A DNA stretch of 64,000 bases from Lysinibacillus sp. JNUCC-52. GTDB lineage: Bacteria > Bacillota > Bacilli > Bacillales_A > Planococcaceae. A program made the translations under genes and the position numbers. A model generated the notes under the pieces. That model saw nothing but the letters and a program-made list of their open reading frames with translations, was not told the origin of the DNA and made no database searches. The stretch lies in assembly GCF_015999545.1 (NCBI RefSeq), contig NZ_CP065546.1:2285501-2349500 (forward strand), in the 5' to 3' direction. Of the stretch, positions 5,277-60,208 are shown one piece after another. Each line of letters opens with the position of its first letter. Position 1 is the stretch's first letter.

Positions 5277-5294
5277 TTATGAACACCCTTTCTA

Positions 5295-7245: not shown

Positions 7246-7256
7246 AGGCATTCTCC

Positions 7257-8153: not shown

Positions 8154-8166
8154 TTTGTTCCCTCCC

Positions 8167-9090: not shown

Positions 9091-9117
9091 GGCGCCTTCC
9101 TCCTTTCTATTTTGTAA

Positions 9118-9147
9118 AAAAGGAATTGACTAGCATCAATTCCTTTT
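9118..9147 (-). terminator. Intra-operon rho-independent terminator/attenuator after the binding-protein gene
   Basis: Perfect 12-bp arms (AAAAGGAATTGA and its complement) enclose a 6-base loop, and the leftward transcript continues into U residues. It starts 8 bases beyond the binding-protein stop codon. Partial read-through would set the usual excess of binding protein over the rest of the transporter. Confidence 0.8.
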
Positions 9148-9154
9148 CTGTGCA

Positions 9155-39480: not shown

Positions 39481-39590
39481 GTGACAGGCACTCAAACAAT
39501 TCTGAACTTTCCCCCAAGTAAAAACCCACGAAGTCTCCTGCGCGCAGAAAGCTAAGTGGGTTTTTAGAGGTGACAGGCACTCAAACAATT
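39481..39590. repeat. Dispersed 3'-end repeat, copy C, reverse orientation, running into the ROK kinase gene
   Basis: Two arms GTGACAGGCACTCAAACAAT (39481 and 39570, the first followed by TCTGAA) flank a core with inverted ends AAAAACCCAC (39520-39529) and GTGGGTTTTT (39556-39565). The core includes CGAAGTCTCCTGCG. Bases 39581-39590 are also the last codons and TGA stop of the ROK kinase. Confidence 0.87.
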
Positions 39591-40519
39591 AAATGGGCCG
39601 CACCAATTAATGCTGCGTTCTCAAACAATTGCGAACGTCTTATTTCATATGTGTTTCGATAGGAAGGAAGGACGTAGGTTTCGGTCACTTCTTCAATCTT
39701 TTCCATAAATCGAGAAGTTGTTTTCATAACACCGCCACCGAGTACAATGCAGTCTGGGTTAAATGTTTGTATAAAATTCGCCAAAACAATACCTACATAT
39801 GTAGCCGCTTGCTCAATAATTTCTTGTGCAACTAAATCTCCTGATTCATATGCAGCAAACACCATTTTAGTATCAATCGGCCTTTGTTCTTGCTTCTCCA
39901 TTTCAACCAGCATAGATGTACACTTTTTGATTGCGTCCACCGCATGTCGTTGAATCGATACTCCTGATGCATATACTTCTAAACAACCTAATTTGCCACA
40001 ATTACATGTTGGTCCGTTCGGATTCACAGTGACATGCCCTATTTCGCCAGCTAACCTATTACTGCCAGTATATAGCTTTCGTTCAAAAATAATGCCGCCA
40101 CCGATTCCAGTGCTTATCGTCATAAAAAGCATATTCTTTGATTGCCGGCCTGCCCCGTAGTTGAATTCTCCCCAAGTAGCTGCACTTGCATCATTGACAA
40201 CTGTAATTTTCTTATCTAATTGTGCATTTAGCATCTGCCCTAACTGTACATTTCTCCAATCAAAAGTAGACCAATAGCGAATAATGCCGTGATCTGTATC
40301 AACTATCCCAGGCACGCCGACGCCTATACCTCTAATCTCGTAGCCTTCTGAAAGAGCATTTATCGCCTCTACTACTCTATTGACAACAATCTCTGGACCT
40401 TCGTGCCCTTTTGTATCCAGACGAATTTCCTTAATCATTTCCCCATCAACACTTAATAATCCAATGGCAATTTTTGTACCACCCATATCTACTCCAACTA
40501 GGTACTCTTTTTGTTGCAT
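39581..40519 (-). CDS. ROK-family sugar kinase
   Basis: 312 residues without an HTH. The N-terminal VGVDMGGTKIAIGLL phosphate loop, the catalytic-region VVNDASAATWGE, STGIGGGIIF and the zinc motif CNCGKLGCLE are intact, so this is an active-type glucokinase/ManNAc/GlcNAc kinase. It is the last gene of the long leftward fucose-locus operon. The final two codons and TGA stop lie within repeat copy C. Substrate is not readable; in this locus GlcNAc released from a fucosylated glycan stub is a reasonable candidate. Confidence 0.85.
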   Translation of the reverse strand: MQQKEYLVGVDMGGTKIAIGLLSVDGEMIKEIRLDTKGHEGPEIVVNRVVEAINALSEGYEIRGIGVGVPGIVDTDHGIIRYWSTFDWRNVQLGQMLNAQLDKKITVVNDASAATWGEFNYGAGRQSKNMLFMTISTGIGGGIIFERKLYTGSNRLAGEIGHVTVNPNGPTCNCGKLGCLEVYASGVSIQRHAVDAIKKCTSMLVEMEKQEQRPIDTKMVFAAYESGDLVAQEIIEQAATYVGIVLANFIQTFNPDCIVLGGGVMKTTSRFMEKIEEVTETYVLPSYRNTYEIRRSQLFENAALIGAAHLIV

Positions 40520-40549: not shown

Positions 40550-41242
40550 CTATGCACGGGATAAAATTATATCCTTAACTTCTTTAATTTTATGTTCGTC
40601 TATAAAATGGTCAAAGCTGGATTGATGTCGAACACCAGATCCAAAATGAAATTCGGAAACGTTGACATGCTGTAAAAAGGATGGAAGGGTTTTAGGTGAT
40701 AGACCCGATCCTGGCATGATTTGCATATGAGCGAGGCTTGCTTGTTGTTCTAAAGCTTGAATTTCACTAACCGCATCAAGTACTTTACTTTTGCCACCTG
40801 ATGTTAAAATCCGTGATATTTCTTTATAGGACATTAGCGTTTGTAATGCCTTGGATTGGTCCTTTACATCGTCAAATGCTCGATGGAATGTAATATCCAA
40901 TCCATCTGCTGCTTCAATTAATTGTTGTAAAATAAGCTCATCAATATTTTGCTCTTCGGTAAGTGCACCTACGACTATTCCACTCGCACCTAGCTGTTTA
41001 CATATTTGAATATCTTTTAACATTATTTTCATATCATTTTGATCATAGCAAAATGAACGGCTGTGAGGACGAATCATTACATTTACTGGGATCGTTAATT
41101 CACTGCACACACTTTCTATCATCGCATAGCTCGGTGTGAGCCCTCCCTCGGCTATACCTGCGACCAATTCAATTCTGTCAGCTCCAGCTTTTTGTGCCGT
41201 TATCGCATCTGTTAAAGAAATTGCAATCACTTCAATAACCAT
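40550..41242 (-). CDS. cutC: CutC-family protein
   Basis: 230 residues, TIM barrel with EVIAISLTDAITAQKAGADRIELV at the N terminus, MIRPHSRSFCY, ITFHRAFDDVKD and MPGSGLSP, all CutC hallmarks. It was first tied to copper handling in E. coli, but that role is disputed and family members often lie in sugar operons. It starts 2 bases before the aminopeptidase stop region ends, inside a glycan-utilisation operon, so a carbohydrate-related role is possible. Confidence 0.85.
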   Translation of the reverse strand: MVIEVIAISLTDAITAQKAGADRIELVAGIAEGGLTPSYAMIESVCSELTIPVNVMIRPHSRSFCYDQNDMKIMLKDIQICKQLGASGIVVGALTEEQNIDELILQQLIEAADGLDITFHRAFDDVKDQSKALQTLMSYKEISRILTSGGKSKVLDAVSEIQALEQQASLAHMQIMPGSGLSPKTLPSFLQHVNVSEFHFGSGVRHQSSFDHFIDEHKIKEVKDIILSRA

Positions 41243-41244: not shown

Positions 41245-42684
41245 TTAGTCATTTCCTTTTCCTAGTTTACTATAGCTTTCTATGAAATCTGCCAATAATC
41301 GAACGCCATAACCTGATGCACCACGCACATGATACCCTGTCGTTTTAGGTGATTGAACAGGTGCCGCCATATCAATATGTCCCCATTTAACACCTTTAGG
41401 GACAAATTTTCTTAAAAACAGTGCAGCCGTAATAGAACCTGCAAGATTGTCTGAGCTAATATTGCAAATATCTGCATAATCACTCGCTAATGATTCCTCA
41501 TATTGATCGATAAGTGGCATCGGCCATATAAAATCACCATTGTAACTTCCCAGCTTCTTCATTAATTCTGTAATCGACTCATCTCCGAATACACCTGCAT
41601 ATTTTAAGCCTAGCGCCGCACCGATGGAGCCCGTTAATGTAGCAATATCAATGATTACATCAGGCTTTAACCTTTCAGAATATAATAGAGCATCCGCTAA
41701 AATAAGCCTTCCTTCCGCATCTGTATTGCCAACTTGAACATGCAAATTATTAGCGAAACGAATAACTTCACCTGGTAAAAATGCCTTTTCATTAGGCAAG
41801 TTTTCAGCAATCGGCAACAGGGCAGTGACATTTACATCAACATTTTTTGAAGCGATTAAATCCATCGCACCAAATACAGCACCTGCCCCGCCCATATCCA
41901 TACGCATATCGCTTATGTTAAGACCCGTTTTAATGCTAATACCACCGCTATCATAAGTCATACCTTTACCAATCAACACGATATGTGGCTTATTAACATT
42001 CGTACAGTACTTAATTTCTGCTAAATACGAAGAATATTGACTGCCTCTGCCAACTGCAAGTAGCCCATTTAAGTCAAGCTGTTGCAAGTCGTCTGTATTA
42101 TAAATATTTACGGACAGATTTTTTCCTCCAAAATGCTGGCGAATTGTTTCAGCAAAAGTGTCTGGATTTAGATCTATTGGATCTGTATTACATAGGTCTC
42201 TCGTAACATTTATACTGGTTGCACGTAACTTCCCAACGTGGATTGCTTCTAGTAACGCTTCTGTTTCGTCCAATAAAAAATAAACATTACAAGGTTTTAT
42301 GACTTTCTTTTCTTGACGGTATTTTTGAAACTGGTAGGCTCCAAGCATCCAACCTTCTACAAAAGCAGTCACAGCATCTACTTGATTGAGATTCACTGCA
42401 TTTAAAAAATCAAAAGATACTTGCATGTCATCATTTTCACTTGCGTTAGCCACTCTTGCTACTTCTCCTGCGGCTTCTCGTAAGCTTTCATAAGTAACGG
42501 TCTCATCGCTTCCTAACCCAACAATTAAGTAATCCTGTCCTCCCTGCTCTGTTTCATGTCTGAGCCAGTGACATTTATGTTTTTCAATCATCCATTTAGG
42601 AACTTGGAGAGATTGATAAGCTGATTGTAATACAGGATTTACAACAACTATATCCTTGTTCTGTTGCCCAAAATGAAATTCCAT
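41245..42684 (-). CDS. Leucyl aminopeptidase family (M17) protein
   Basis: 479 residues. The N-terminal domain is divergent; the C-terminal catalytic domain has GKGMTYDSGGISIKT with the metal Lys/Asp, the bicarbonate-site MRMDMGGAGAV, and the NTDAEGRLILADAL signature. It releases N-terminal amino acids from cytoplasmic peptides. In an operon with a sugar importer, a glycosidase and an asparaginase-family enzyme it may trim the peptide part of imported glycopeptides; that is inference. It lies 3 bases before cutC. Confidence 0.87.
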   Translation of the reverse strand: MEFHFGQQNKDIVVVNPVLQSAYQSLQVPKWMIEKHKCHWLRHETEQGGQDYLIVGLGSDETVTYESLREAAGEVARVANASENDDMQVSFDFLNAVNLNQVDAVTAFVEGWMLGAYQFQKYRQEKKVIKPCNVYFLLDETEALLEAIHVGKLRATSINVTRDLCNTDPIDLNPDTFAETIRQHFGGKNLSVNIYNTDDLQQLDLNGLLAVGRGSQYSSYLAEIKYCTNVNKPHIVLIGKGMTYDSGGISIKTGLNISDMRMDMGGAGAVFGAMDLIASKNVDVNVTALLPIAENLPNEKAFLPGEVIRFANNLHVQVGNTDAEGRLILADALLYSERLKPDVIIDIATLTGSIGAALGLKYAGVFGDESITELMKKLGSYNGDFIWPMPLIDQYEESLASDYADICNISSDNLAGSITAALFLRKFVPKGVKWGHIDMAAPVQSPKTTGYHVRGASGYGVRLLADFIESYSKLGKGND

Positions 42685-42807: not shown

Positions 42808-44808
42808 TTAATCGATATGTAGCATTAAATGTCCCTCGATTTTATCGACAGTAAAGTGTATATACGGTCCTTCAGCACTGTAACTTACCTCTGTTAATTC
42901 AGGCAGTTTTTTTACAGATGTCACCTTTGTCTCACCAACAAACATTCTAATCTCTGTGTTATAAAGTGGGATAATATCTTCAATCGTATAAATATCCTCT
43001 GAACGTTTCTCCGTAATATAATGAAGTGCATGCAAAATCTTTGCCCCTGTTGCCTTATCCTCATTTAATGATGTCAACAATGTCGACGGACCATTATGAG
43101 CAATAAGCTTACTTTCGAGAAGATGGTCAATGGCATCTTTCATCATCCATTTACACCAAGCGAGTCCATTTTTTCGATATAGCTTGAAAATAGGGTGTGA
43201 GAAGTAAATGATATTTTGGCGTTTTGTCACTGCAGCATGTCCAAATGTATGCGATGATGGGGCATGTTGATGCGAACAAAATGTAGTGCCTTCTCTATTA
43301 AAGTAAGGTTTTACTGTCTGCATCAGTACCTCTGACTGTACAGGCTTAATTTCTAAACCTTTTAAATACATGACATATTCTTCTTTGTATAATTTTTTAC
43401 CTATTACATCATTCGGTAAAACGAAATCACGGTCATACTTTGATTCACCAACATACACATTTCCATATAAATCTTCTTCGTTACTATTTTTATTAATTAG
43501 CGATTCATACGTACCAATAATTTTTCCGCCATTATTAGCATAAGCCTGTAGCTTTTGCTGTAATTCAGGAGAGTAGTCAATCACATCAGGTAAGATAATT
43601 AACTGATAGTCATTAAAGTCAATTTGACTGTCAATAATATTAAACTGATAAGACAACTCTTGTAGCATCCTAACGGCGCCGATTAATGCTGGATGGATAC
43701 CTAAATTATGATCTCCTGGTGTATAAAATTCTTCAGGCGTTAATACCCCGATTTCTGCAACTGGCTTATTATTCATACAGTATTTTTCTACTTCTTTCAC
43801 TCTGCCATACACACTGCCGATTAATTCATAAGCCGCCTTCGATAATTTGCCATTTGGATGAAGTTGGTCTCCAATCGAACAACCAGCACCTAAAGCAAGC
43901 ATATTGAAACATTCAAACTCTAATGCTGCCTTATTTTTCAGTGAGTGGAAATCACCCCAATACGTATGGAACTTGCCCGTCATACCAATGATGTCCTTGC
44001 CCAAAGTACGAGAATATCGCATCGTTGCAGGGAAATGATCATAGCCCCAGCCACCACTTGGTAAAGACTCAAGCTCCAAATGTGTATAATTATTTAAGCT
44101 ACTTTTATTGCCTGGACCAATGTGAGAGCTATTATAGAAAATACCTGCATGTGGCACTCTAGTTCTAATAAAATCGCTAATCTCTGCTTTAAACTCCTCA
44201 AGCATTACCGTAGAATAATAGATTCGATCGACTCTATTTCCTGTGTCTAACCCTTTTCGCTCCATTTGTTCAAAACAATTTTTACAATTACAATCAACTT
44301 TAAATAAAATATCTAAAAAGAAGCCATCAATATTTTCGCTTTTTACTGTATCAATAATATCTTGTAAATGGTCTTTAAAATATTGTCTATAGCCGCTATT
44401 TAAGCAAATTGTATAGTAGAAATGTGGCTCAGGAACCCCCTGGCTATTAATGAATTGTCCATTTTCATCAATCGATAACCACTCAGGATGATGTTTGCTA
44501 ATATAACCATCCCATTGAACAGTTGTATAAATCGGCACTTTAATATTATTTTTATGGCAAACCTCTATTTGTTCTAATAACAGGTTTTTATTTTCAAGAT
44601 GTGGATGAATCAAATCTGGACGATGCTTTGAAGGGTAGTACAACCAGCCATGATGACATCTAGCAAAACAAGTAATCGAGTTTACATTGGCTTCTTTTAA
44701 TGTCTCCACAAACTCCTCTGCAACGAAGTCCTTTCCAACCCCAGGGATATCTTCACTCGTATGAAAGTCTAAATGCACCTGTCTATAACGTAATTCGCTC
44801 AAATTCAT
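42808..44808 (-). CDS. Putative glycoside hydrolase of the GHL6 / alpha-amylase-like TIM-barrel group
   Basis: 666 residues, cytoplasmic. The N-terminal barrel (about 1-340) has FARCHHGWLYYPSKHRPD, VPIYTTVQWDGYISKHHPEW and DGFFLDILF, where D166 is the likely catalytic acid or nucleophile, followed by a cysteine cluster CNCKNC (173-178) that may bind zinc. The middle part (about 340-480) looks like a beta-galactosidase-type trimerisation domain (PEFYTPGDHNLGIHPAL...IDSQIDFNDYQLIILPDV). The C terminus is beta-rich. The pattern matches hypothetical glycosyl hydrolase 6. Its place in a fucose operon suggests an alpha-L-fucosidase or related exo-enzyme on an imported fucoside. Confidence 0.7.
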   Translation of the reverse strand: MNLSELRYRQVHLDFHTSEDIPGVGKDFVAEEFVETLKEANVNSITCFARCHHGWLYYPSKHRPDLIHPHLENKNLLLEQIEVCHKNNIKVPIYTTVQWDGYISKHHPEWLSIDENGQFINSQGVPEPHFYYTICLNSGYRQYFKDHLQDIIDTVKSENIDGFFLDILFKVDCNCKNCFEQMERKGLDTGNRVDRIYYSTVMLEEFKAEISDFIRTRVPHAGIFYNSSHIGPGNKSSLNNYTHLELESLPSGGWGYDHFPATMRYSRTLGKDIIGMTGKFHTYWGDFHSLKNKAALEFECFNMLALGAGCSIGDQLHPNGKLSKAAYELIGSVYGRVKEVEKYCMNNKPVAEIGVLTPEEFYTPGDHNLGIHPALIGAVRMLQELSYQFNIIDSQIDFNDYQLIILPDVIDYSPELQQKLQAYANNGGKIIGTYESLINKNSNEEDLYGNVYVGESKYDRDFVLPNDVIGKKLYKEEYVMYLKGLEIKPVQSEVLMQTVKPYFNREGTTFCSHQHAPSSHTFGHAAVTKRQNIIYFSHPIFKLYRKNGLAWCKWMMKDAIDHLLESKLIAHNGPSTLLTSLNEDKATGAKILHALHYITEKRSEDIYTIEDIIPLYNTEIRMFVGETKVTSVKKLPELTEVSYSAEGPYIHFTVDKIEGHLMLHID

Positions 44809-44837: not shown

Positions 44838-45653
44838 CTATTCTTTGACTGAACCTGCCGCAAGACCACTTTCAATTTTCTCTTGGAATAGAAGATAAAC
44901 GACTAAAGGCACTAATATTGTGATGACGATGGCAGCCATTAATGGCCCGTATTCTGATCCTCTTTCACCACTAAAGTTTAATAGACCCAATGCAATTGGT
45001 TTTAAGCGGTCATCATTAATAAATAAAAGTGGGAACAGAATGTTATTCCATGCGCCTAAAAAATTAAAAATTGAAACAGTCGATATTGCTGGAACAGACA
45101 TCGGCAATATTACTTTGAAATATATTTGGAAATAACTCGCACCATCCATAAGTGCTGCTTCTTCTAAAGAGGCATTAATTCCTTTCATAAACCGTGTTAA
45201 AACTAAAATACTAAACGACAAAGAAAACGCCACATATAGGAGCACTAATGCCACTAAGTTATTTTTCAATTCTAATGCGCCAATAATATAAGAAACTGGC
45301 ACAAGCACTGTATGCATAGGTATCATCATACCTAACAGGAAAAACAGGGCTAAAAATTTATTCACTTTAAAGTTAAATCTCGATAATGTAAATGATGCCA
45401 TGGAAGAGACAATCGCGAGAATAATCACAGTTGCCATCGAAATCAGTATACTATTTAAGAAGTATCTGCTCATATTCGCTTCACGCCAAGCAATTACATA
45501 GTTCTCAAATCTAAATACCTCAGGCAAGCTAAAGGGTGAACTAAATATTTCTTTATTTCCTTTAAGAGAAGAAACTAATGTAAATAACATCGGTTCAATA
45601 AACAATAAAGCCATTGCTATGACAAAAACATATAATATTATTTTCTTTTTCAT
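44838..45653 (-). CDS. Sugar ABC transporter permease (MalG type)
   Basis: 271 residues, six membrane helices. The EAA loop reads EEAALMDGASYFQIYFKVILP, typical of CUT1 permeases. Start overlaps the preceding permease gene by 4 bases (ATGA). No ATPase gene is found in this locus, so a shared MsmX-type ATPase must be supplied from elsewhere. Confidence 0.92.
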   Translation of the reverse strand: MKKKIILYVFVIAMALLFIEPMLFTLVSSLKGNKEIFSSPFSLPEVFRFENYVIAWREANMSRYFLNSILISMATVIILAIVSSMASFTLSRFNFKVNKFLALFFLLGMMIPMHTVLVPVSYIIGALELKNNLVALVLLYVAFSLSFSILVLTRFMKGINASLEEAALMDGASYFQIYFKVILPMSVPAISTVSIFNFLGAWNNILFPLLFINDDRLKPIALGLLNFSGERGSEYGPLMAAIVITILVPLVVYLLFQEKIESGLAAGSVKE

Positions 45654-46537
45654 TGATTCTTCTCCTTCCTATTCATGATTGCTTCACTACCGATAGTCAA
45701 TACGAGCGCAATGACAAAAATAATGACCCCTAATGCGCTACCAACGCCATAATTATTGTATCTGAAGGCTTCATAATACATTAAAGTAGTCGGCAAATTG
45801 GTTAGTCCATTCGGTCCTCCCTCAGTCATAACAAAAATTAAATCGAATACTTTCACTGTCCCAATAATATCCATTAAAATACATAAAGTAATAATTGGCT
45901 TTAACATAGGAACTGTTATATGGAAGAACTTTTGTACGGCTGAAGCTCCATCCATCTCTGCCGCTTCATATACTTCTTCTGGTATCGTTGTTAATCCTGC
46001 TAATAGGATGACCATGTAGTATCCTACACCTGCCCAAATGTTCACAAAAATAATTGCACCCATCGCAGTAGACGAGTCAATTAACCAGCCTTTAGCTAAG
46101 TCTGCAAGCCCAATAAATTCTAATAAGCTATTTAAGGAGCCATTCGGCATAAAGATAAAGTACCAAAGTAAACCAATAGCTGTAAGTGGAAAAATAGTAG
46201 GTACAAAATAGATGACTTTAAAGAATCGATGTCCTCTAAATTTTGTATTAATAGCAACTGCTAGCAATAAAGCGATTGGTGTATGGAATAAAACGCTAAA
46301 AAACACCATGCCAAACATATTTTTTAAAGAAATAAGAAAGTCTTTATCTTTAAACACATTGAGATAGTTTTCTAAACCAACAAAATTTAATGGTGCTCCT
46401 TTAATGCCATTCCAATTGACAACAGAAAAATAAAGGGCGCCTATCATAGGTATAATAAGGAATAGAATATAGATTACTAAGGCAGGTAAAGTAAATAGAA
46501 AAATTTTCGACTTATCTCTATTTGTTTTTACATTCAT
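45650..46537 (-). CDS. Sugar ABC transporter permease (MalF type)
   Basis: 295 residues, six membrane helices. EAA loop is YEAAEMDGASAVQKFFHITVP. Starts after ATGGAGGGG. Forms the CUT1 channel with the MalG-type protein and receives cargo from the lipoprotein at 46729. The gap before it contains a strong hairpin element. Confidence 0.92.
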   Translation of the reverse strand: MNVKTNRDKSKIFLFTLPALVIYILFLIIPMIGALYFSVVNWNGIKGAPLNFVGLENYLNVFKDKDFLISLKNMFGMVFFSVLFHTPIALLLAVAINTKFRGHRFFKVIYFVPTIFPLTAIGLLWYFIFMPNGSLNSLLEFIGLADLAKGWLIDSSTAMGAIIFVNIWAGVGYYMVILLAGLTTIPEEVYEAAEMDGASAVQKFFHITVPMLKPIITLCILMDIIGTVKVFDLIFVMTEGGPNGLTNLPTTLMYYEAFRYNNYGVGSALGVIIFVIALVLTIGSEAIMNRKEKNQ

Positions 46538-46601
46538 CTATTCCCCTCCATTTCTTAAATTTTTTGTAATCCTAATCAAATACAATGTCTCGTATAAGCT
46601 T

Positions 46602-46686
46602 CAGGCGGACGCTTTTTACGGGCAAGCACCGAGTAGCTTTCCTCGCTACGCACGGTGCTTACTATTCCCGTTAGAGTCGCCGCCTT
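46602..46686. repeat. Long nested stem-loop between binding-protein and permease genes
   Basis: An outer pairing AGGCGGAC/GTCGCCGCCT encloses a second strong stem, AAGCACCG-A-GTAGC with GCTAC-GCA-CGGTGCTT. Composition (GCGGACGCTTT...CCCGTTAGAGTCGCCGCC) differs sharply from the AT-rich surroundings and matches the style of dispersed Bacillaceae stem-loop repeats. It may also reduce read-through into the permease genes. Confidence 0.7.
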
Positions 46687-46728
46687 TTAGCTCATCTAAA
46701 TGTTCATTGTTCTTCTTTGAAAAACTAT

Positions 46729-48039
46729 TTATTTAGATTTATCAATTTCATCTTGAATTTCTTTTGCTGCATCTTTAGGCTTACCACCAATTAAGATACT
46801 TACGATAGAGTTTCTTGTTCTATCTTGCATAGATGGTAGTGGATCGAAATCGAAGACATCTACTGCAATGCCTGTTGACGTAGCACCTAATTCAATATTG
46901 TGTAAAAACAATTCAGATACTTTCGAGTTATCAATGGCGATATCTGATCTTGGAATTAAGAACTGCGCTTCCTCTGCAAATCGTTTAGCTGCTTCAGCAG
47001 AAGTAAGCATTTTTAAAAGCTCAATCGTATATTCTTTTTCTTTTCCTTCAAGTTTGCCATTCACCATATATGGGCTAATAATTTGCATATCTTCATCTTT
47101 AAACTCTGGTTTTTCATCAAAATATGGGAATTTCGCAAGTTTAATAGCATCCGCGTATTCTGTCTCACTGGAATTTGTAAATTTACCGATATTCCATGGA
47201 CCAGTAATAATCATCGCTGCCTTCCCTTCAAGGAAATCTGCCACAGCAATCTCATCGCTTATACCAGCAGCACTTTGACCAAATGCATCTAACTTATTTA
47301 AGTCTTCAACATACTCTAGTGTTTTCACAACCTCTGAATCAGTCCATTTTAATTCTCTAGTGCCTAGTTTCTTTGCTGCTTCTGTTCCCATCCATTTATA
47401 AAAAATTTGGTTGTGTAAATGTCCCGCCATATATGTTGCCTTTGCCCCAAGTGCAATAGGTGTTACATCGATGCCTTTTAACTTTTTAACTGCTGCTGTT
47501 AGTTCACTCCACGTTTCAGGGAATTCATTAATACCAGCTTTTTTAAGTAGTTCTTCATTATAATAAACACCAATTAAACCAGACTCCATTGGAATTCCAT
47601 AAGTCCCCTCATGACCTGGCACTTGATAATACTTTAATGCACCTTCTGTGAAATTTTGTCCCCATTCAGGATCATCCTTTAAAATTGGGGCCATATCCAT
47701 AAGTAAGCCACTTTCAATATATTCGTTTAAATTTGCAACACCTTGTACTCTAAAGATGTTAGGTAAAGTGCCAGATGCAAGATCTGTTTTCAGCTTATTG
47801 TTAAATGCTGATTCATCACCTTGCGATTCATCAACTACCACTACATCGGAATGTTTTGCTTCAAATTCTTTTATAATATCTTTGTAGATTTGTGCCTGAG
47901 TGCTTGTCCCAGCCATTCTTGTTAGCAATCTAATTTTTACCTTACCATCTGCATTATCACTAGCATCACTCGAACCACCACACGCTGTAAGTATAGTAGC
48001 TAATAAAACCATCAATACGACTAACATCTTTTTCTTCAT
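46729..48039 (-). CDS. Sugar ABC transporter substrate-binding lipoprotein (CUT1, SBP_bac_1)
   Basis: 436 residues from ATG 48039, 9 bases after AAAGGGG. The lipoprotein signal ends LTACGGSS with lipidation at Cys. The mature domain has KIRLLTRMAG, FPETWSELTAAVKKLK, TGPWNIGKF and the C-terminal family pattern of oligosaccharide-binding proteins. It should deliver an oligosaccharide, possibly a fucosylated glycan or glyco-amino acid, to the permeases. Confidence 0.92.
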   Translation of the reverse strand: MKKKMLVVLMVLLATILTACGGSSDASDNADGKVKIRLLTRMAGTSTQAQIYKDIIKEFEAKHSDVVVVDESQGDESAFNNKLKTDLASGTLPNIFRVQGVANLNEYIESGLLMDMAPILKDDPEWGQNFTEGALKYYQVPGHEGTYGIPMESGLIGVYYNEELLKKAGINEFPETWSELTAAVKKLKGIDVTPIALGAKATYMAGHLHNQIFYKWMGTEAAKKLGTRELKWTDSEVVKTLEYVEDLNKLDAFGQSAAGISDEIAVADFLEGKAAMIITGPWNIGKFTNSSETEYADAIKLAKFPYFDEKPEFKDEDMQIISPYMVNGKLEGKEKEYTIELLKMLTSAEAAKRFAEEAQFLIPRSDIAIDNSKVSELFLHNIELGATSTGIAVDVFDFDPLPSMQDRTRNSIVSILIGGKPKDAAKEIQDEIDKSK

Positions 48040-48066
48040 AAATTTCATCCCCTTTGTAACAAATTT

Positions 48067-49080
48067 TTATTTTGTATTTGGTGTTAATGCAAATACCTCA
48101 CGGATTGATCCTACTTCAATACCTCCATCGCTTTTAATGATGCTAGGTCTTAGCGAGCGAATATTAGCAATTGTTTCTTTATTTTCATAGTCTATTTGCT
48201 CTAAAATCGCAGCAATTACATTTGGCCAAACGTCTTCTGAGCCATCTAAAACTTTCAATGCGAAACCTAAACGTTCTTTTTTCAAGCCGAAGCAATAAAC
48301 ACCTTTTGCTCCGCCCTTTGCTACAATATTTCGATCTTGCAATAACACTGAGCAAATAAAGTTTTCAGACGCTACCATGTTGAATTCATTGTTCATCATT
48401 GTTGTCATTCGCTCTACCGCTTCTCTAAGTTCCAAATCTTCAATTAAATCTGGACAAGCTAATTTCAAACTTGTAATAGCCATATTGTGCAGCGGTATTG
48501 CGAACACAGGTACACCACAACCGTCTACTCCGACATGAATTTCAGATAGCGGTGTTTCAGATAAATAAGATAGCGTTTTCAAAATAAGCTGTTGTAGGGG
48601 ATGGTCTATATTCCAATAACCCTCCGTTGGGAAACCCATTTCACGACACGTTGCAATAAAGCCCATATGTTTTCCTGAGCAATTATGAAAAAGTCGTCTT
48701 TTCTCAAGATTTTGTCTTAACATTGCCTCTTTCGGTTCCGCATTTAAAGGGTACGAATATGGACAAAATAATTCATTTTCATCAATAGCTAATTTTTCTT
48801 TCATCGTTTCCAGCGCTTCTATATGATACGTTTCTCCACGATGCGAAGCAGTAAATAATGCCGCTTCCCTATCAGTTAAGCCATACTTCAAATCAATTTT
48901 AGATAAAAATGCGGGTAGTGCTTGAATTGGTTTTGCAGCAGAACGGAAATATGTATTATGTTGAATATTACCAACTTGATATATTGCCTCTTTACTGTCA
49001 TTTACACCACAAACAACGCCAGAATGAACATTTTCCAATAAGTTCGCTCTTGTTTCTTCTACTAAAACTTTAGAATTCAT
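48067..49080 (-). CDS. Asparaginase II family (PF06089) amidohydrolase, paralogue 2
   Basis: 337 residues, no signal peptide. It aligns without gaps to the protein at 258-1259 from the first residues to past AKGGAKG; by eye about half of positions are identical. The catalytic set is intact: S47 and K50 in FRSAAKP, S79 in ASHRGE, C134 and K137 in HNCSGKH, C188 in DGCG, K255. It lies between the fucose mutarotase gene and the sugar-binding lipoprotein gene in the same orientation. A plain asparaginase has no obvious reason to be in a fucose operon, so hydrolysis of a glycosyl-asparagine, or of Asn released from it, is inferred. Confidence 0.85.
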   Translation of the reverse strand: MNSKVLVEETRANLLENVHSGVVCGVNDSKEAIYQVGNIQHNTYFRSAAKPIQALPAFLSKIDLKYGLTDREAALFTASHRGETYHIEALETMKEKLAIDENELFCPYSYPLNAEPKEAMLRQNLEKRRLFHNCSGKHMGFIATCREMGFPTEGYWNIDHPLQQLILKTLSYLSETPLSEIHVGVDGCGVPVFAIPLHNMAITSLKLACPDLIEDLELREAVERMTTMMNNEFNMVASENFICSVLLQDRNIVAKGGAKGVYCFGLKKERLGFALKVLDGSEDVWPNVIAAILEQIDYENKETIANIRSLRPSIIKSDGGIEVGSIREVFALTPNTK

Positions 49081-49189: not shown

Positions 49190-49618
49190 TTATTTGATGA
49201 CACCTTTTGTTAAAATGATGTTAGCGTACTGCGCTTTTTCACTTGTTGCGACTACAGCAAATGCCTTTTTTGTGCGCTCGTAAAATTCAAAGCGCTCCAT
49301 AAATTCGAATGGAATTGGAAATTCAGATTGACGTTGAACGATTTGTTCATACTCTTTCCAAATCGTTGGTTCCACCGTATCTCCAGGAACAACTGCCATT
49401 AATTGAATCGGATGTTCCACATACGTATCAATAGGAAAGAACGCTAATATTGCTTCTAATAATTCTGGAATCGTATGTCCATCACATCGGATTAACTGTT
49501 GGGCATGGCTGGCAGCGGGAAAATTCCCGTCCGCCAACACAATTTCATCTCCATGCCCCATCTCCATCAATACTTTCATTAAGTCTGGTGAAATAATTGG
49601 AGGAATCCCTTTTAGCAT
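49190..49618 (-). CDS. fucU: L-fucose mutarotase (FucU/RbsD family)
   Basis: 142 residues. The N-terminal LKGIPPIISPDLMKVLMEMGHGDEI, with the catalytic His, and LADGNFPA are diagnostic of FucU, as is the C-terminal FYERTKKAFAVVATSE. It interconverts alpha- and beta-L-fucose and names the sugar handled by the locus. It lies 20 bases after the FAH-family hydrolase gene. Confidence 0.88.
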   Translation of the reverse strand: MLKGIPPIISPDLMKVLMEMGHGDEIVLADGNFPAASHAQQLIRCDGHTIPELLEAILAFFPIDTYVEHPIQLMAVVPGDTVEPTIWKEYEQIVQRQSEFPIPFEFMERFEFYERTKKAFAVVATSEKAQYANIILTKGVIK

Positions 49619-49638: not shown

Positions 49639-50532
49639 TTAATCTTCTGCTACAAAGTAATTTGTCAGAGAACCTAATTTCTCGATTTCTACAGTTACTT
49701 CATCCCCTTGTTGAATATACATTTGCTGCTCTGCAGGATATCCGAACACTACGCCTTCAGGTGTACCTGTTAAAATAAGATCTCCAGGCTCTAATGTCAT
49801 ATGTTGAGAAATATAGCTAATAATTTCAGCACAATTGAAAATCATATCCGCTGTATTTGAGTTTTGTCTTATATCTCCATTTACATATGTTTTTAATGCC
49901 AAATTATTAGGGTTCTCTATCTCATCTGCCGTCACTAAGTAAGGACCAACAGGACTGAACTTATCGCACGTTTTTCCTAACAACCATTGTTGTGTTTTCA
50001 TTTGCAAATCGCGTGCCGATAGATCATTGACAGTGCAATAACCAAAAACATGATCTAATGCATTTTCTTCTTTTACATTTTTTATCTTTTCACCAATAAC
50101 AATGCCAAGCTCTACCTCATAATCAAGTTGCTTTGTTACAGTTGGAATTGGAATTGCACTTTGATGGCCAGTTAATGTATTATCAAATTTATTAAATAAA
50201 ATAGGCACTTCTGGATATGGTGCATTCGTTTCATCTGCATGTTTACGGTAATTTAAACCAACGCAAATAATTTTATGAGGTTTTGTAACGCATGGTCCCC
50301 AGCTGATTTGACTGTCCTCTATAAATACTGCACTTTCTTCTACTTCTATTGCCTGAATAAAATTTTGCAGCTTTGCTATCTCTTTTTTATTACAAGAAAA
50401 TAGAGACGCTAAATCGGGTAAGTTATTAAAATTCGAATTTTTGTCCATCGATGCTGCTATATCGATAATGCCTTGCTTCGTTTGAACGCCTAATTGATAG
50501 TCGCCCTGTTTTTCAAATGTTAATAGTTTCAT
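49639..50532 (-). CDS. FAH-family hydrolase, probable 2,4-diketo-3-deoxy-L-fuconate hydrolase
   Basis: 297 residues from ATG 50532, 7 bases after GAGGA. The FAH domain shows ICVGLNYRKHADETN, the metal ligands in DYEVELGIVIGE and a conserved Lys/Asp region GYCTVNDLSARDLQ, with the C-terminal LTGTPEGVVFG. In non-phosphorylating L-fucose degradation the last enzyme splits 2,4-diketo-3-deoxy-L-fuconate into pyruvate and L-lactate, and the neighbours here make that the best assignment. Confidence 0.83.
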   Translation of the reverse strand: MKLLTFEKQGDYQLGVQTKQGIIDIAASMDKNSNFNNLPDLASLFSCNKKEIAKLQNFIQAIEVEESAVFIEDSQISWGPCVTKPHKIICVGLNYRKHADETNAPYPEVPILFNKFDNTLTGHQSAIPIPTVTKQLDYEVELGIVIGEKIKNVKEENALDHVFGYCTVNDLSARDLQMKTQQWLLGKTCDKFSPVGPYLVTADEIENPNNLALKTYVNGDIRQNSNTADMIFNCAEIISYISQHMTLEPGDLILTGTPEGVVFGYPAEQQMYIQQGDEVTVEIEKLGSLTNYFVAED

Positions 50533-50559
50533 AGTCATTCCTCACGTCATTTCGTAATA

Positions 50560-51333
50560 TTAAGCATTTTTCCCAAAAACAACGCCACCATCTATGTAAA
50601 GCGGCGAGCCCATCATAAAACTGGACTCATCAGATGCTAAAAATAAGGCAGCTTTCGCAACATCTTCAGGTTTGCCTAATTCACCACTTAGCTGTCTTGT
50701 TTTAATACTTGCAATGGCAGCTTGTGGATTGTCATATGCATTCTTTAAATAATTTTCTACAAATGGTGTAAAAATCGTTCCTGGCAATAAAGCATTTACT
50801 CGAATATTGTAAGGCGCATAATCTACTTGCATCGCCTTAGTTAACGATAAAATAGCTCCTTTTGTTGCTGAATATAAAGCACGTTGCTTTAAGCCCATTT
50901 CTGCAGCGCATGAAGACATATTAATGATGCACCCGCTTTTCTGCTCCATCATGTAAGGGACAATGTATTTGGTTGGCAAATAAACGCCCTTTACATTTAC
51001 GCTCATTACTTTATCCCATACGTCTGGCTCAACCTCATCTATACGTCCAACATTACTGATGCCCACATTATTAAAAAGGATATCAATTTTTTCGAACTGC
51101 TTTGTAATCTGTTCAGCCATCTCTTTTACAGCTTCAGGATTCGTTACATCTGCATGATGAAATGTTGCGCTTCCTCCGTTATGTTGAATATCCTTTACAG
51201 TACCTTCACCATTTTCCTTGTGAACATCGTTGATGATAACGTAGGCTCCTTCTGCTGCAAACAGCAGGGCTGTAGAACGACCAATACCACTACCACCACC
51301 AGTAATGAGTGCTACTTTACCTTGTAATCTCAT
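50560..51333 (-). CDS. SDR oxidoreductase, probable 2-keto-3-deoxy-L-fuconate dehydrogenase
   Basis: 257 residues, classical SDR. TGGGSGIG nucleotide loop, NNVG, catalytic Ser in NMSSCAAE and YSATK. Asp at the end of the second strand (INDVHKE) indicates NAD rather than NADP. The C-terminal TRQLSGELGKPEDVAKAALF resembles the KDF dehydrogenase branch. Its start overlaps the preceding SDR gene by 4 bases. Confidence 0.8.
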   Translation of the reverse strand: MRLQGKVALITGGGSGIGRSTALLFAAEGAYVIINDVHKENGEGTVKDIQHNGGSATFHHADVTNPEAVKEMAEQITKQFEKIDILFNNVGISNVGRIDEVEPDVWDKVMSVNVKGVYLPTKYIVPYMMEQKSGCIINMSSCAAEMGLKQRALYSATKGAILSLTKAMQVDYAPYNIRVNALLPGTIFTPFVENYLKNAYDNPQAAIASIKTRQLSGELGKPEDVAKAALFLASDESSFMMGSPLYIDGGVVFGKNA

Positions 51334-52145
51334 AGCAGCAATTCCCTTTCTTGTTCTAAATGATCTTCTGGCTGTGCGGCTTTCACAGTAAGCCCGCCAT
51401 CTACCATTAGTAAATGTCCGTTTATTTGCATCGCTTCCTCCGAAGCTAAAAATACAACGGCATCAGCAATTTGTTTTTCAGTACCTAGTCTTTTCATTGG
51501 ATTCGCTTGAATTTCTTTTTCTAAAATACTTGGATCTTCAAGATATTCCTGGCACATATCTGTAGCTACTGTACTTGGACCAACGGCATTAATATTAATA
51601 TTATATTTGCCTAATTCAATCGCTAAAGCTTTAGTTAAATGACTCGCCGCCGCTTTTGAAGAAATATAATGTGGAATAACTGGGCTTGTCACAAGCAGAC
51701 TTGCCGTAGATGTAATATTAATGATTTTACCGTAACGTTTTTCAATCATTTTTTTAGCTACTCTTTGGGAAGTTAAGAAAATGGATTTTACATTTGTTTG
51801 ATACGTGTTATCCCAAGTTTCCTCTGTTAACTTCATAAAAGACTCAAATGGCGCAATACCTGCGTTGTTCACTAATATATCTACATGGCCAAGTGTGCTC
51901 TCTACCTCATCAATCATTTGATCGACTTCTTGTTTAATACCTACATTCGCTTTCACTACCATCGCTCTGACATGGAATCGTTTCTCTATTTGTTCCTTTA
52001 ACATTTCTGCCTTTTCTAGTGAACTTTGAGATGTATAGTTAATGGCAACGTGGGCTCCTTCTTCTGCTAATCTTTCTGCAATAGCAGCCCCTATCCCCCT
52101 ACTCCCTCCTGTTACTAGGGCAACACGATTTTCAAGTTTTTTCAT
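51330..52145 (-). CDS. SDR oxidoreductase, probable L-fucose dehydrogenase
   Basis: 271 residues, classical SDR with TGGSRGIG, NNAG, catalytic NITSTASL and YISSK. An elongated, acidic C-terminal tail (PEDHLEQERELLL) follows the usual DGG end. In a locus with FucU, a lactonase and a dehydratase it is the best candidate for oxidising L-fucose to the lactone; its role could be exchanged with that of the neighbouring SDR. Confidence 0.78.
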   Translation of the reverse strand: MKKLENRVALVTGGSRGIGAAIAERLAEEGAHVAINYTSQSSLEKAEMLKEQIEKRFHVRAMVVKANVGIKQEVDQMIDEVESTLGHVDILVNNAGIAPFESFMKLTEETWDNTYQTNVKSIFLTSQRVAKKMIEKRYGKIINITSTASLLVTSPVIPHYISSKAAASHLTKALAIELGKYNININAVGPSTVATDMCQEYLEDPSILEKEIQANPMKRLGTEKQIADAVVFLASEEAMQINGHLLMVDGGLTVKAAQPEDHLEQERELLL

Positions 52146-52168: not shown

Positions 52169-53329
52169 TTATAGACTAATACCAATTCTGCTAATGCTAA
52201 ATTCTTGATGGCCTAAAATCTCGGCTTTCGTTTCCTGGCCTTTTGCTACATTGACAATCGATTCAAAAATGCGTTCACCTGATTCGTCCAACGTTTCTTT
52301 CCCTTGTAAAACAGGGCTAACGTCTACATCGATATTGTCTGCCATTCGTCTGCCAGTCATTTCGTTACCTGTTATTTTAATAACAGGGATAATTGGATTT
52401 CCTGTCGGTGTCCCTCTTCCAGTTGTAAAGCAAACAACATGAACTCCCGCCGCTGCCATACCTGTTACACATTCGATATCATTCCCTGGCGAATCCATGA
52501 AATAATAGCCTGTGCCTGGAATTTCTTCTGCGAAGTCTACAACCCCTTGAAGCTCGGCTGTTCCCGCTTTACTAATACAACCTAATGACTTTTCCTCAAT
52601 TGTTGATAAACCACCTGCAATATTACCTGGACTAGGGTTTCCTCCACGCATATCGACACCCATCCGTTCAACTTCGAGTTCAAATTGCTCAACACACTTA
52701 TATAATTTTTGTTGTACATCATGATTAATTGCCTTAGCAGCAACTAGATGCTCAGCACCTATGATTTCTGTAGTCTCACCCATGACGATAGTGCCACCAG
52801 CATTCAAAATAGTATCAGCTGCTCTGCCAAGTGCAGGGTTACTACATAATCCTGACGTTGCGTCAGAACCGCCACATTTCACACCAACAATTAGCTCTGA
52901 AAGTGGAATATCTATTAACGGTATATCTTCTATTTTTTTCAGAAGCTCCTGTGCCACTTCCACACCTTTTTGAATTGTTTTAACGGAGCCACCTTCATTT
53001 TGAATGTCTATCCAAACAACAGGCTTACCCGTTACTTCAATTTCTTGCTTGATGTCCTGAGCATTAATGACTTCACAACCAAGACTAACAATTAATACAG
53101 CACCGACATTCGGATTTTTTCCCATTCCAACTAATACTTTATGTGTTCTCTCTTTATCAGCGCCAACTTGGCTACACCCATGTTGGTGAGGTATAGCGAC
53201 TGCCCCTGGAACTTGTTGTTGAATTCTCGAAGTAACCTGATTTGCACACACCACTGTTGGTAAAATTAAAAGATGATTTCGAATACCAATTTTTCCATTG
53301 TCTCTTCGATAGCCCTTAATAACTGTCAT
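52169..53329 (-). CDS. UxaA-family sugar-acid dehydratase, large domain (probable L-fuconate dehydratase)
   Basis: 386 residues. GYRRDNGKIGIRNHLLILP, CSQVGAD, IVSLGCEVINA, GVKCGGSDATSG and the iron-site VKCGG/CxxG region match altronate/galactarate dehydratase C-terminal domains. The small SAF domain is encoded separately just upstream with a 4-base overlap, a split also seen in the Campylobacter jejuni fucose island. It should convert L-fuconate to 2-keto-3-deoxy-L-fuconate, replacing the enolase-family fuconate dehydratase used by many other bacteria. Confidence 0.83.
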   Translation of the reverse strand: MTVIKGYRRDNGKIGIRNHLLILPTVVCANQVTSRIQQQVPGAVAIPHQHGCSQVGADKERTHKVLVGMGKNPNVGAVLIVSLGCEVINAQDIKQEIEVTGKPVVWIDIQNEGGSVKTIQKGVEVAQELLKKIEDIPLIDIPLSELIVGVKCGGSDATSGLCSNPALGRAADTILNAGGTIVMGETTEIIGAEHLVAAKAINHDVQQKLYKCVEQFELEVERMGVDMRGGNPSPGNIAGGLSTIEEKSLGCISKAGTAELQGVVDFAEEIPGTGYYFMDSPGNDIECVTGMAAAGVHVVCFTTGRGTPTGNPIIPVIKITGNEMTGRRMADNIDVDVSPVLQGKETLDESGERIFESIVNVAKGQETKAEILGHQEFSISRIGISL

Positions 53330-53655
53330 TGTTGCGCACCTCCCACATGTTTATCTCCACGTCCACGTATGCCTTCGATATTGTGAACATGCACGTGATC
53401 ACCTGGCAAAATGGCAATTGATGCCGCTCCTATTACTTCACCGTATTTCACAATTTCCTCTGCCTTATTAATAGGCGCAATCGCAACTTTATGACCAAAG
53501 CTAACATCTTGTCGCAATGTTACTTCATAAGCTTGGTTGCCTATTGTGTAAAATACACTTTCGCCTTTTTTCACATCTGTTAAAAGGGTTGTTACATTGT
53601 CCTTTTCATCCATTACAATGCAAGTTATCCCTTGTTGATACGCCATTTCTGCCAT
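53326..53655 (-). CDS. UxaA-family dehydratase, small SAF-domain subunit
   Basis: 109 residues from ATG 53655 after GAGGGAGGGCGAAGG; the longer frame runs back into the amidohydrolase gene. The SAF domain contains FGHKVAIAPINKAEEIVKYG and GASIAILPGDHVHVHNIEG, the metal-binding His pattern of altronate dehydratase N-terminal domains. It works with the large subunit encoded next. Confidence 0.85.
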   Translation of the reverse strand: MAEMAYQQGITCIVMDEKDNVTTLLTDVKKGESVFYTIGNQAYEVTLRQDVSFGHKVAIAPINKAEEIVKYGEVIGAASIAILPGDHVHVHNIEGIRGRGDKHVGGAQQ

Positions 53656-53671
53656 TCCTTCGCCCTCCCTC

Positions 53672-54514
53672 TTATAATTTATAAAAACGCTTTGCATTTT
53701 CTCCAAATATGTTTTCTAAATCTTTTCCAAGTATGTTTGTAGGTAAGTTTTCCATCAAAATTGTCAGTACATCGTTGTATGTACCTGCTAACTGACAAAC
53801 AGGCCAGTCACTGCCAAACATCACGCGATTCGTCCCAAATACATTTACAACATGGTTGATATAGGGCTGAAATTCTTCAATTGTCCAATTTTTATGCGTT
53901 GCTTCTGTCACTAAACCTGAAATTTTACACATCACATTCGGGTACATTGCAATTTGTCCTATTTCCTCTTTCCAACCTTCTAGCTGTTGTTTTGCAATAT
54001 TTGGCTTTGCAATATGGTTTACTACTACTCTTAATTGAGGAAACATTTTTAATAATTTTAGTATGTAAGGAAAATGCCTTGGCTTTATTAAAAGATCGAG
54101 CGGAACATCATACTGTACTAGCAGTTCAATGTTCTTTAATACATCTTTTCTTAAAATCCAATCATCTTCATCCAAATCTTGTAACATAGGTCGCACACCT
54201 ACAAAACCATGATGTTGGTGTAGCTCCTCTAAATGTTGCTTAAAGTTTATTTCCGTTAAATCTAACCAGCCGACTACTCCTGCAATCCATTCATGCTCTT
54301 CAAACAAATTTAATAAAAATAATGTTTCATTGATTGTTGGTGCAGCTTGGACTACGATTGTTTTATCAATTTGATGTTCGTTTAAAATTGGATATAAATC
54401 ATTAGGCATAAAATCCCGATAAAGCTCTGGTAAATCTTTGGTTAACCATTTATAATCATTCCTTGATAACTTCCAAAAATGTTGATGTGAATCAATTATT
54501 ATATTCGACACCAC
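53672..54514 (-). CDS. Amidohydrolase-family lactonase, probable L-fuconolactone hydrolase
   Basis: 280 residues, metal-dependent TIM barrel with the N-terminal IIDSHQHFWKL His-x-His, GVRPMLQD, VVVNHIAKP and FGSDWPVC with the catalytic Asp. It hydrolyses a sugar lactone to the acid, L-fuconate in this context. It is first in the operon. No ATG is available near the family's normal N terminus; GTG 54514 or 54511 overlap the AAAGGTGG ribosome binding site, and ATA codons at 54502 or 54499 are better spaced, so the true start is uncertain. Confidence 0.83.
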   Translation of the reverse strand: MVSNIIIDSHQHFWKLSRNDYKWLTKDLPELYRDFMPNDLYPILNEHQIDKTIVVQAAPTINETLFLLNLFEEHEWIAGVVGWLDLTEINFKQHLEELHQHHGFVGVRPMLQDLDEDDWILRKDVLKNIELLVQYDVPLDLLIKPRHFPYILKLLKMFPQLRVVVNHIAKPNIAKQQLEGWKEEIGQIAMYPNVMCKISGLVTEATHKNWTIEEFQPYINHVVNVFGTNRVMFGSDWPVCQLAGTYNDVLTILMENLPTNILGKDLENIFGENAKRFYKL

Positions 54515-54529: not shown

Positions 54530-54543
54530 TGTTACCGATAACA
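54530..54543. promoter_or_regulatory. LacI-type operator TGTTACCGATAACA
   Basis: Near-perfect palindrome (TGTTA-CCGA-TAACA, only the central pairs are imperfect) placed just after the -10 box and 16 bases before the first fucose gene. LacI-family operators of this form are common, and a LacI gene is encoded divergently at 55105. Confidence 0.65.
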
Positions 54544-55104: not shown

Positions 55105-56121
55105 GTGACAACAATATATGATATTGCAAAAAAAGCTAACGTTTCTCCTATGACTGTTTCAAGAGTCATTAACAATAAGGGAAATATTAGCGAAAAAACA
55201 AGAAAAAAAGTAGAGGCTGTCATTCAAGAACTAAACTATATCCCCAACTCCGCTGCTAGAAGTTTAAATATAAAAAAAACAAAGCTTCTTTCATTAGTTA
55301 TTCCTGATATTACAAACCCCTTCTTCACAAAGGTTGCAAGAGGAGCAGCAGACAAGGCGAATCAAATGGGCTATCAGCTTATGCTGTGTAATACTGACGA
55401 GGATCCAGAAAAAGAAAGTGGCTATATAGACGCTCTTATTTCCAAGATGGTAGATGGCGTTATTATCGCACCAACAGGGAATCAATCTAAAAAAAACTTA
55501 AAAAAGCTTGTGAAAAACAAAGTGCCCTTTACATTAATTGATAGGATGATAGATGATTTTCCTTGCGATATGGTGTTGGGAAATAATCATGAGGGAACAA
55601 GAGAGTTAGTGCAGCATTTAATTGATCGAGGACATAAAAAGATCGCTCTCATTCATGCACCTTTAGATATTTCTACATCCAAAGAGCGTTATCAAACATA
55701 TGTAGAAACTTTAAAAGTGAATGATTTAGCTTTTAATAAAAATTTAGTTATCCAAACACATTATAAACAAGAAGAAGAATGGGACACTATCAATGGTTTA
55801 CTGCTATTACCTGAGGAAGAACGACCTACTGCCATCTTCGCAGCTAATAACTTTATAGCAATTAACGCAATTACAACACTGCGCAACAAAAATATCCGAG
55901 TGCCAGAAGATATTGCCGTTGTCTGCTTCGACGACTTAGAGCCCTATTCTAATTTAGATCCTTTCTTCACAGTAGCTTCACAGCCCGCATATGACTTTGG
56001 TTATATGGGGACACAATTAGTTATTGAACGAGTTGAAGGAAACGGACCAAGCGAATATCGCAAAATTAATCTCCAACCAAAGCTTATCGTTAGAAAATCA
56101 TCAAGTACTTCTATTGTCTAA
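55105..56121 (+). CDS. LacI-family transcriptional repressor of the fucose/glycan locus
   Basis: 338 residues with a GTG start after AAGGTAGG. The HTH TIYDIAKKANVSPMTVSRVI and hinge NYIPNSAARSLN are classical. The periplasmic-binding-protein-like effector domain includes LVIPDITNPFFTKVARGA, DGVIIAPTG and AVVCFDD. It is divergent to the fucose operon and most likely releases the operator at 54530 when a pathway sugar or intermediate binds. Confidence 0.9.
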   Translation: MTTIYDIAKKANVSPMTVSRVINNKGNISEKTRKKVEAVIQELNYIPNSAARSLNIKKTKLLSLVIPDITNPFFTKVARGAADKANQMGYQLMLCNTDEDPEKESGYIDALISKMVDGVIIAPTGNQSKKNLKKLVKNKVPFTLIDRMIDDFPCDMVLGNNHEGTRELVQHLIDRGHKKIALIHAPLDISTSKERYQTYVETLKVNDLAFNKNLVIQTHYKQEEEWDTINGLLLLPEEERPTAIFAANNFIAINAITTLRNKNIRVPEDIAVVCFDDLEPYSNLDPFFTVASQPAYDFGYMGTQLVIERVEGNGPSEYRKINLQPKLIVRKSSSTSIV

Positions 56122-60133: not shown

Positions 60134-60164
60134 CTCCATAGCTAATCGTTTTTAAGCACAAAAA

Positions 60165-60201
60165 AACGAGCGGTAAGCTCACCATTGCTTTACCGCTCGT
60201 T
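60165..60201 (-). terminator. Rho-independent terminator of the helicase unit
   Basis: Arms AACGAGCGGTAAGC and GCTTTACCGCTCGTT (one bulged T), leftward U-run from the AAAAAAA. It lies 8 bases beyond the stop at 60209. Confidence 0.88.
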
Positions 60202-60208
60202 CTGTCGT

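Follow-up and report, generated by a model that had tools for sequence, protein, structure and literature searches.

A Lysinibacillus operon probably devoted to core-fucosylated N-glycan stubs, with a class 3 asparaginase-type protein as putative glycosylasparaginase

Use of a fucosylated glycosyl-asparagine was described for the alf-2 gene cluster of Lactobacillus casei in which, according to the passages considered, Fuc-alpha-1,6-GlcNAc-Asn is imported and defucosylated, AsnA2 hydrolyses the GlcNAc-Asn amide to Asp and 1-amino-GlcNAc, the latter decays spontaneously to GlcNAc before phosphorylation, and the gene of the peptidase PepV is dispensable for growth on the glyco-amino acid (PMC6960285). 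Among class 3 asparaginases (PF06089), ReAIV and ReAV from Rhizobium etli act on free Asn, and the passages on ReAV state that Arg47 holds the Asn alpha-carboxylate and that the acyl-enzyme is held to form at Ser48 (PMC12292245). The papers considered on these two enzymes report assays on free Asn, two of them contain neither the term "GlcNAc" nor "glycosylasparag", and no action of a PF06089 protein on GlcNAc-Asn is reported in the passages of open-licence literature considered; the alf-2 chemistry is itself already described, and PF06089 is not known for glyco-Asn cleavage. GH151 enzymes, in the passages considered, remove Fuc linked alpha-1,2/3/4/6 to GlcNAc and leave fucosyl trisaccharides uncut, and D154, E235 and H503 are catalytic or active-site residues of the enzyme with the structure 6tvk (PMC10154630). 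In Xanthomonas, the passages considered place cutC (XAC3091), filed under copper metabolism, in the nix N-glycan cluster, which occurs in 138 genomes (PMC6718126), and the asparaginase gene XAC3092 in the nix neighbourhood (PMC5700972).

In the window, the whole stretch of 64,000 nucleotides from Lysinibacillus sp. JNUCC-52 that was analysed, 15 genes run leftward on the minus strand from position 54514 to 39581 (~15 kb), with spacing that ranges from overlaps to 191 bases. The series opens with an amidohydrolase similar to L-fuconolactonases (53672..54514; PF04909, 148 bits), which scored 230.6 bits against NF052480 (L-fucono-1,5-lactonase), below the cut-off of 400. It is followed by the SAF-domain small part (53326..53706; PF08666) and the large part (52169..53329; PF20629, PF04295) of a UxaA-type enzyme of the altronate/galactarate dehydratase family, likely an L-fuconate dehydratase, by two SDR dehydrogenases presumed to act in fucose oxidation (51330..52145, 69% identical to a homologue at the GH151 locus L048, and 50560..51333), by a FAA-hydrolase family enzyme that probably performs the last oxidation step (49639..50538; PF01557, 257 bits), and by the L-fucose mutarotase FucU (49190..49618; NF011949, 150.6 bits, cut-off 141). 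The families of a non-phosphorylative L-fucose route (mutarotase, dehydrogenase, lactonase, dehydratase, second dehydrogenase and cleavage enzyme) are thereby all present, FucU being the only one of the six that passes a curated cut-off and the roles of the others being putative.

The next gene encodes the asparaginase-type protein here called ASN3 (48067..49080), and it precedes those of a sugar-binding lipoprotein of carbohydrate ABC transporters (46729..48048; matched by NCBIfam carbohydrate SBP families, all below cut-off) and of two ABC permeases named from sequence (45650..46537 and 44838..45653). The series then continues with a GHL6 gene (42808..44808), an M17 leucyl-aminopeptidase-type peptidase (41245..42684; PF00883, 334.5 bits), a CutC family protein (40550..41242; PF03932, 192 bits, with CutC relatives in the PDB) and a ROK family sugar kinase, the proposed GlcNAc kinase (39581..40519; PF00480, 242 bits, no NCBIfam cut-off reached). 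The peptidase scores under all 13 NCBIfam aminopeptidase cut-offs matched and carries NTDAEGR, which we take to be the M17 peptidase motif. The preliminary description had correctly placed an intact PF06089 enzyme between fucU and the lipoprotein gene, in one leftward series with the GHL6, M17 and ROK genes; absent from it were the CutC gene, between those of M17 and ROK, and the GH151 identity of the GHL6 product. No ATPase, endoglycosidase or mannosidase gene was found within the operon; NagA and NagB are encoded in the window genome.

A LacI family regulator, named from sequence and 98% identical in the relative L038, is encoded divergently (55105..56121, plus strand) and is the probable regulator of a single leftward transcript. 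The palindrome TGTTACCGATAACA (54530..54543), a candidate LacI-type operator, lies immediately before the lactonase gene on its upstream side and has a near copy, GTTACCGGTAACA, in L038; the pattern, derived from this very site, has a single exact match in the window. A scan of the window for promoters and terminators performed no better than on shuffled sequences. By eye we also observed, in the gap between the genes for the binding protein and the first permease (46538-46728) and likewise in L038, a G+C-rich inverted repeat that perhaps sets a higher expression of the binding protein. Elsewhere in the window, at 59812-60230, low-complexity repeats give rise, on both strands, to open frames made up of recurring short motifs.

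ASN3 has 337 aa and matches PF06089 at profile positions 1-321 of 322 (317 bits), which was its sole match in a profile search that included PF01112. The full-length domain, the two Ser-Lys pairs and the Cys/Lys/Cys zinc site (S47, K50, S79, K255, C134, K137 and C188, from the alignment) identify it as a class 3 L-asparaginase. It shares the family, the Ser-Lys pairs, the zinc ligands and about 30% sequence identity with ReAIV and ReAV (PDB 8cly/7os3 relatives), and the fold of these enzymes is matched by its predicted structure, a mediocre model (mean pLDDT 62) with badly predicted active-site loops. The glycosylasparaginases/aspartylglucosaminidases of PF01112 are Ntn hydrolases of another fold with an autoprocessed N-terminal Thr, whereas ASN3 has Ser-Lys pairs and a zinc site; judged by sequence it is no member of PF01112, though it may work like one, since the same reaction is proposed for it. 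Arg47 and Ser48 of ReAV correspond to R46 and S47 in ASN3, and the retained carboxylate-binding arginine fits a free glyco-Asn as substrate; the need for a free alpha-carboxylate would in turn explain a peptidase in the operon. For a beta-lactamase-like enzyme such as ASN3, a glycosylamine as leaving group instead of ammonia would presumably be a modest change.

In a tree of 67 rows, ASN3 falls in a clade of 23 rows (clade A; support 100/96), in which the Ser-Lys pairs and the zinc ligands of ReAV are kept in every row. The clade shares conserved residues of its own, mostly absent from 29 distant rows, and has its own gene company; ReAV lies outside it and its gene stands in an operon with Asn permease and aspartase. 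A second member of clade A, ASN3b (258..1259, minus strand), is 55-57% identical to ASN3, which bears out the label of paralogue given in the preliminary description. Its cluster (258-10738, minus strand) contains no CutC and comprises an oligopeptide (Opp) ABC transporter, a NagC-like ROK regulator and a MocA oxidoreductase gene flanked by two AP2 sugar-isomerase-like genes; it may serve a different route for a related glyco-amino acid. ASN3b is followed in congeners by the gene of a BadF-type kinase. Genes for Gfo/Idh/MocA and AP2 TIM-barrel proteins recur beside clade A asparaginases (L039, L222, L231, L101 and the window at 2443-5276), and MocA1 is 59-60% identical between the families labelled f1 and f41 and 73% within f41.

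The GHL6 product matches 6tvk, the GH151 alpha-L-fucosidase iso2 of Paenibacillus thiaminolyticus, over its full length (phmmer, E 1.6e-134, residues 5-664), and the reading as a GHL6 protein of unknown function was rejected. Its residues D166, E247 and H513 correspond to D154, E235 and H503 in 6tvk (manual alignment count, one offset) and are invariant across 20 GH151 sequences, so that full-length homology is joined by the catalytic Asp, Glu and His expected of a GH151 member. Since the linkage range of the family includes GlcNAc-linked Fuc and no fucosyl trisaccharides, it suits a small stub; the N-terminus (MNLSELRYRQ) has no obvious signal peptide by eye, and the enzyme is therefore probably intracellular. 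A general tie between GH151 and asparaginase was considered and rejected: in the class sample, ASN3 adjoins GH151 in two of 20 GH151 places (19 fetched loci and the window, with G317 and G529 left out), namely in the window genome (G000) and G509, and the other 18 have no ASN3 in the stretch. In G418, and partly in G305, fucose genes accompany GH151 in the absence of ASN3, so that the window operon resembles a fucoside module fused to one for glyco-Asn.

Taken together, we consider it likely that this operon scavenges core-fucosylated N-glycan stubs, importing Fuc-GlcNAc-Asn, removing its fucose, splitting GlcNAc-Asn by ASN3 and using both sugars. The binding protein and the two permeases, with an ATPase presumably encoded elsewhere, would import Fuc-GlcNAc-Asn or a short glycopeptide, from which the M17 aminopeptidase would free the glyco-Asn. 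GH151 would then remove L-fucose, an activity known for the family and predicted for the window protein. The company of the gene and the chemistry suggest that the Ser-Lys nucleophile of ASN3 would attack the side-chain amide of GlcNAc-Asn, with Asp and 1-amino-GlcNAc as products. More speculatively, the latter might be converted to GlcNAc and ammonia by CutC or spontaneously. The ROK kinase would form GlcNAc-6-P for NagA and then NagB, and L-fucose would be oxidised by FucU, the lactonase, the UxaA-type dehydratase, the two SDRs and the FAA hydrolase.

The fucosyl-GlcNAc-Asn or glycopeptide-stub degradation put forward in the preliminary description is well supported, in its core, by comparative genomics. 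Its variant in which the asparaginase splits released Asn is chemically unlikely, because amidases known to act on the GlcNAc-Asn linkage release Asp. Compared with alf-2, as seen in the passages considered, the clustering of a fucosidase, a GlcNAc-Asn amide hydrolase, a ROK kinase, a peptidase and a transporter and the intracellular location of the fucosidase are similar. The L. casei cluster has AlfC, which we take to be a GH29 enzyme, the Ntn-type AsnA2, the M20 peptidase PepV, the MFS transporter AlfH and a GntR regulator, and fucose is excreted, whereas the window operon has GH151, PF06089, M17, an ABC transporter, a LacI regulator and CutC, and fucose would be oxidised by the products of the same operon. 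The ROK family is the only one, among those of AlfC, AlfH, AsnA2, PepV and SugK (ROK), that occurs in the operon, which is an analogue of the alf-2 cluster at the level of predicted function. The preliminary remark that no such pathway had been described thus holds for the enzyme families, which are mostly different, and does not hold for the chemistry, which in the passages considered is that of alf-2 (PMC6960285).

The neighbourhood of clade A asparaginases is distinctive. Within 9 kb of 36 clade A loci we found CutC in 29, M17 in 17, a GH29/GH151 fucosidase in 16 and a sugar kinase in 13, and around 50 other PF06089 loci none of the four, the clade A loci being mutually related rather than independent, so that a Fisher test on 36 versus 50 ignores relatedness. 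Peptide transporters (18/36 versus 17/50) and the other glycosidases of the reference set (4/36 versus 1/50) do not distinguish the two groups. Neighbours were labelled by BLAST with our own reference set, which covers some glycosidase families and leaves others unlabelled. One locus (L182) was left out of this count, and three of 40 (L141, L155 and L157) have no countable asparaginase ORF. In the class sample, CutC lies 10 kb or less from the asparaginase gene in at least 24 of the 26 clade A genomes (by-eye comparison; G509 and G419 from loci), and the two without it, G028 and G033, hold the ASN3b type. These CutC-bearing lineages carry the family labels f1, f3, f22, f41 and f54 and include Alkalihalophilus, and 16 of the 24 genomes belong to the genus g40.

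It was predicted in advance that unseen clade A genes of f41 would lie near CutC and/or M17 together with a fucosidase, an N-glycan glycosidase or a ROK gene, and that distant copies would not. Of 13 held-out f41 loci, 11 have CutC, eight M17, all 13 CutC and/or M17, and seven a fucosidase; the full predicted form (CutC/M17 with glycan genes) was found in nine of the 13 and in none of seven controls. With the counts for the 36 and 50 loci, this result led us to reject a chance neighbourhood, and the zeros at the 50 loci likewise a single role for all PF06089 proteins. In L229, from another family, ASN3, binding protein, two permeases, GH151, M17 and CutC follow in the order of the window, with a 66% identical binding protein and 77% identical permeases; given this order and the presence of GH151 in only two of 261 genomes of the window's family, horizontal transfer is likely. 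A plasmid of Alkalihalophilus pseudofirmus carries ASN3, a five-gene peptide transporter, M17, CutC, an alpha-L-fucosidase and ROK. In G509, one strand holds GH38, GH125, GH29, GH3, a second GH38, a GH2 mannosidase, ASN3, GH151, M17 and CutC, with similar sets in G419, G664 and G662 (several labels from BLAST only); GH38, GH125, a GH2 mannosidase and a core fucosidase are the tools that cut an N-glycan down to its root.

Only the window genome and one congener (G052; L038) were found to have all 15 genes of the operon, its fucose half included, and a contig scan returned one relative. Conservation beyond close relatives, on which the preliminary description depends, extends to the set of asparaginase, M17, CutC and fucosidase and not to the full operon. 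The nearest ASN3 homologue outside this pair, from Bacillus ndiopicus (L005, 79%), has none of these neighbours, and seven of eight loci of genus g40 have ASN3 and CutC without M17 or a fucosidase, as judged with references for some glycosidase families. A sister clade of asparaginases in f3, 44-47% identical and counted among the 50 other PF06089 loci, has CutC in none of 14 loci (L097-L100, L159-L168), one of its genes (L099) lies near genes for a sigma factor and a pirin, and it probably has a different function. In L226 (12634-14003) and L230 (2628-4015), M17 is spread over two neighbouring ORFs, and GH29/GH38 matches appear in short pieces in L119 (3579-7907); these are decay or sequencing errors.

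The genes that accompany CutC here are glycan genes, and genes for the classical enzymes are also found beside it. Three plasmids of Hymenobacter have a gene annotated N(4)-(beta-N-acetylglucosaminyl)-L-asparaginase (PF01112) that shares four bases with CutC; GH92 is close by in each, as are ROK, GH18, nagB or GH2 in some. As read from incomplete plasmid (PLSDB) gene tables, at five further plasmid loci the annotated glycosylasparaginase has no CutC nearby (3/8 examined with CutC), and three plasmid CutC loci have no asparaginase. In the class sample, CutC is found 3 kb or less from at least three of the five PF01112 genes in the ~210-bit group, in one case on the opposite strand; CutC is paired with a PF01112 glycosylasparaginase in G488 and G519. 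The Xanthomonas nix region is alike in having cutC XAC3091 and the asparaginase gene XAC3092 among N-glycan genes; it differs in that its cutC is read as a copper metabolism gene, and the family of XAC3092 is not given in the passages considered. In three phyla, therefore, CutC occurs with asparaginase-type genes in an N-glycan context, without being exclusive to this role. On an alphaproteobacterial plasmid (L197, 5000-8922), it occurs in an amino-sugar setting, with MurNAc-6-P etherase, a ROK kinase, MocA and a sugar ABC transporter.

No functional link between CutC and glycosylasparaginase was found among the matches listed in the open-licence literature. The best reading of the gene linkage is that clade A PF06089 proteins are glycosylasparaginases that replace the classical PF01112 enzyme. 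The profile search found no PF01112 in G000, G052 and G509, which alone proves little since the family is present in only 14 of 398 genomes. That CutC hydrolyses 1-amino-GlcNAc, the glycosylasparaginase product, and that clade A provides a second, non-homologous glycosylasparaginase fold, is a tentative proposal, made slightly more credible by the Xanthomonas cutC in N-glycan clusters. An enzyme for 1-amino-GlcNAc may be necessary in bacteria whose cytoplasm is neutral or alkaline, and dispensable in acid-tolerant lactobacilli.

These observations also bear on other explanations. An ordinary free-Asn asparaginase, in an operon that imports fucosylated glycopeptides and uses peptidase-released Asn as nitrogen source, would agree with the activity of ReAIV and ReAV, with the grouping of the ReAV gene with Asn permease and aspartate ammonia-lyase, with the catalytic residues and R46 conserved in ASN3, and with an M17 peptidase that would free amino acids. 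We consider it unlikely, however, as genes for CutC, M17, fucosidase and kinase keep company with clade A and with none of the 50 other PF06089 loci, as the linkage would yield no free Asn with amidases of the known kind, and as CutC is also found beside annotated classical glycosylasparaginases. Less probable still is another substrate, a different glycosyl-asparagine (such as the Amadori product fructosyl-Asn) or a non-core fucoside, with the fucose and the ASN3-M17-CutC routes merely sharing a promoter. Salmonella has fructosyl-Asn pathways with an asparaginase, G418 and G305 carry GH151 and fucose genes without ASN3, a fucosidase is missing within 9 kb at 20 of the 36 clade A loci, and the ASN3b cluster combines MocA and AP2 genes without CutC; yet GH29/GH151, ASN3 and M17 are interleaved in several families, and N-glycan mannosidases lie beside ASN3 in G509, G419, G664 and G662. 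Finally, we give very little credence to CutC or another protein as an N-glycosidase that liberates GlcNAc together with Asn for deamidation by ASN3, a reading which the direct adjacency of ASN3 and CutC in many loci and a CutC enzymology unsettled among the matches listed in the open-licence literature would allow, because an N-glycosidase would be pointless where CutC pairs with annotated classical glycosylasparaginases (the three Hymenobacter records, G488 and G519).

If the scavenging of glycan stubs by way of ASN3 is true, a subclade annotated as asparaginase, a class studied for leukaemia, would split the protein-sugar bond of N-glycoproteins, and the fold of clade A would be unrelated to that of the lysosomal enzyme missing in aspartylglucosaminuria. 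CutC, a supposed copper-homeostasis protein, may really be a sugar enzyme, and this widespread family, with a solved structure that we take to be the human member (PDB 3iwp), would gain a directly testable enzymatic role. Glyco-amino-acid scavenging would then extend from gut lactobacilli to other Bacilli, alkaliphiles included.
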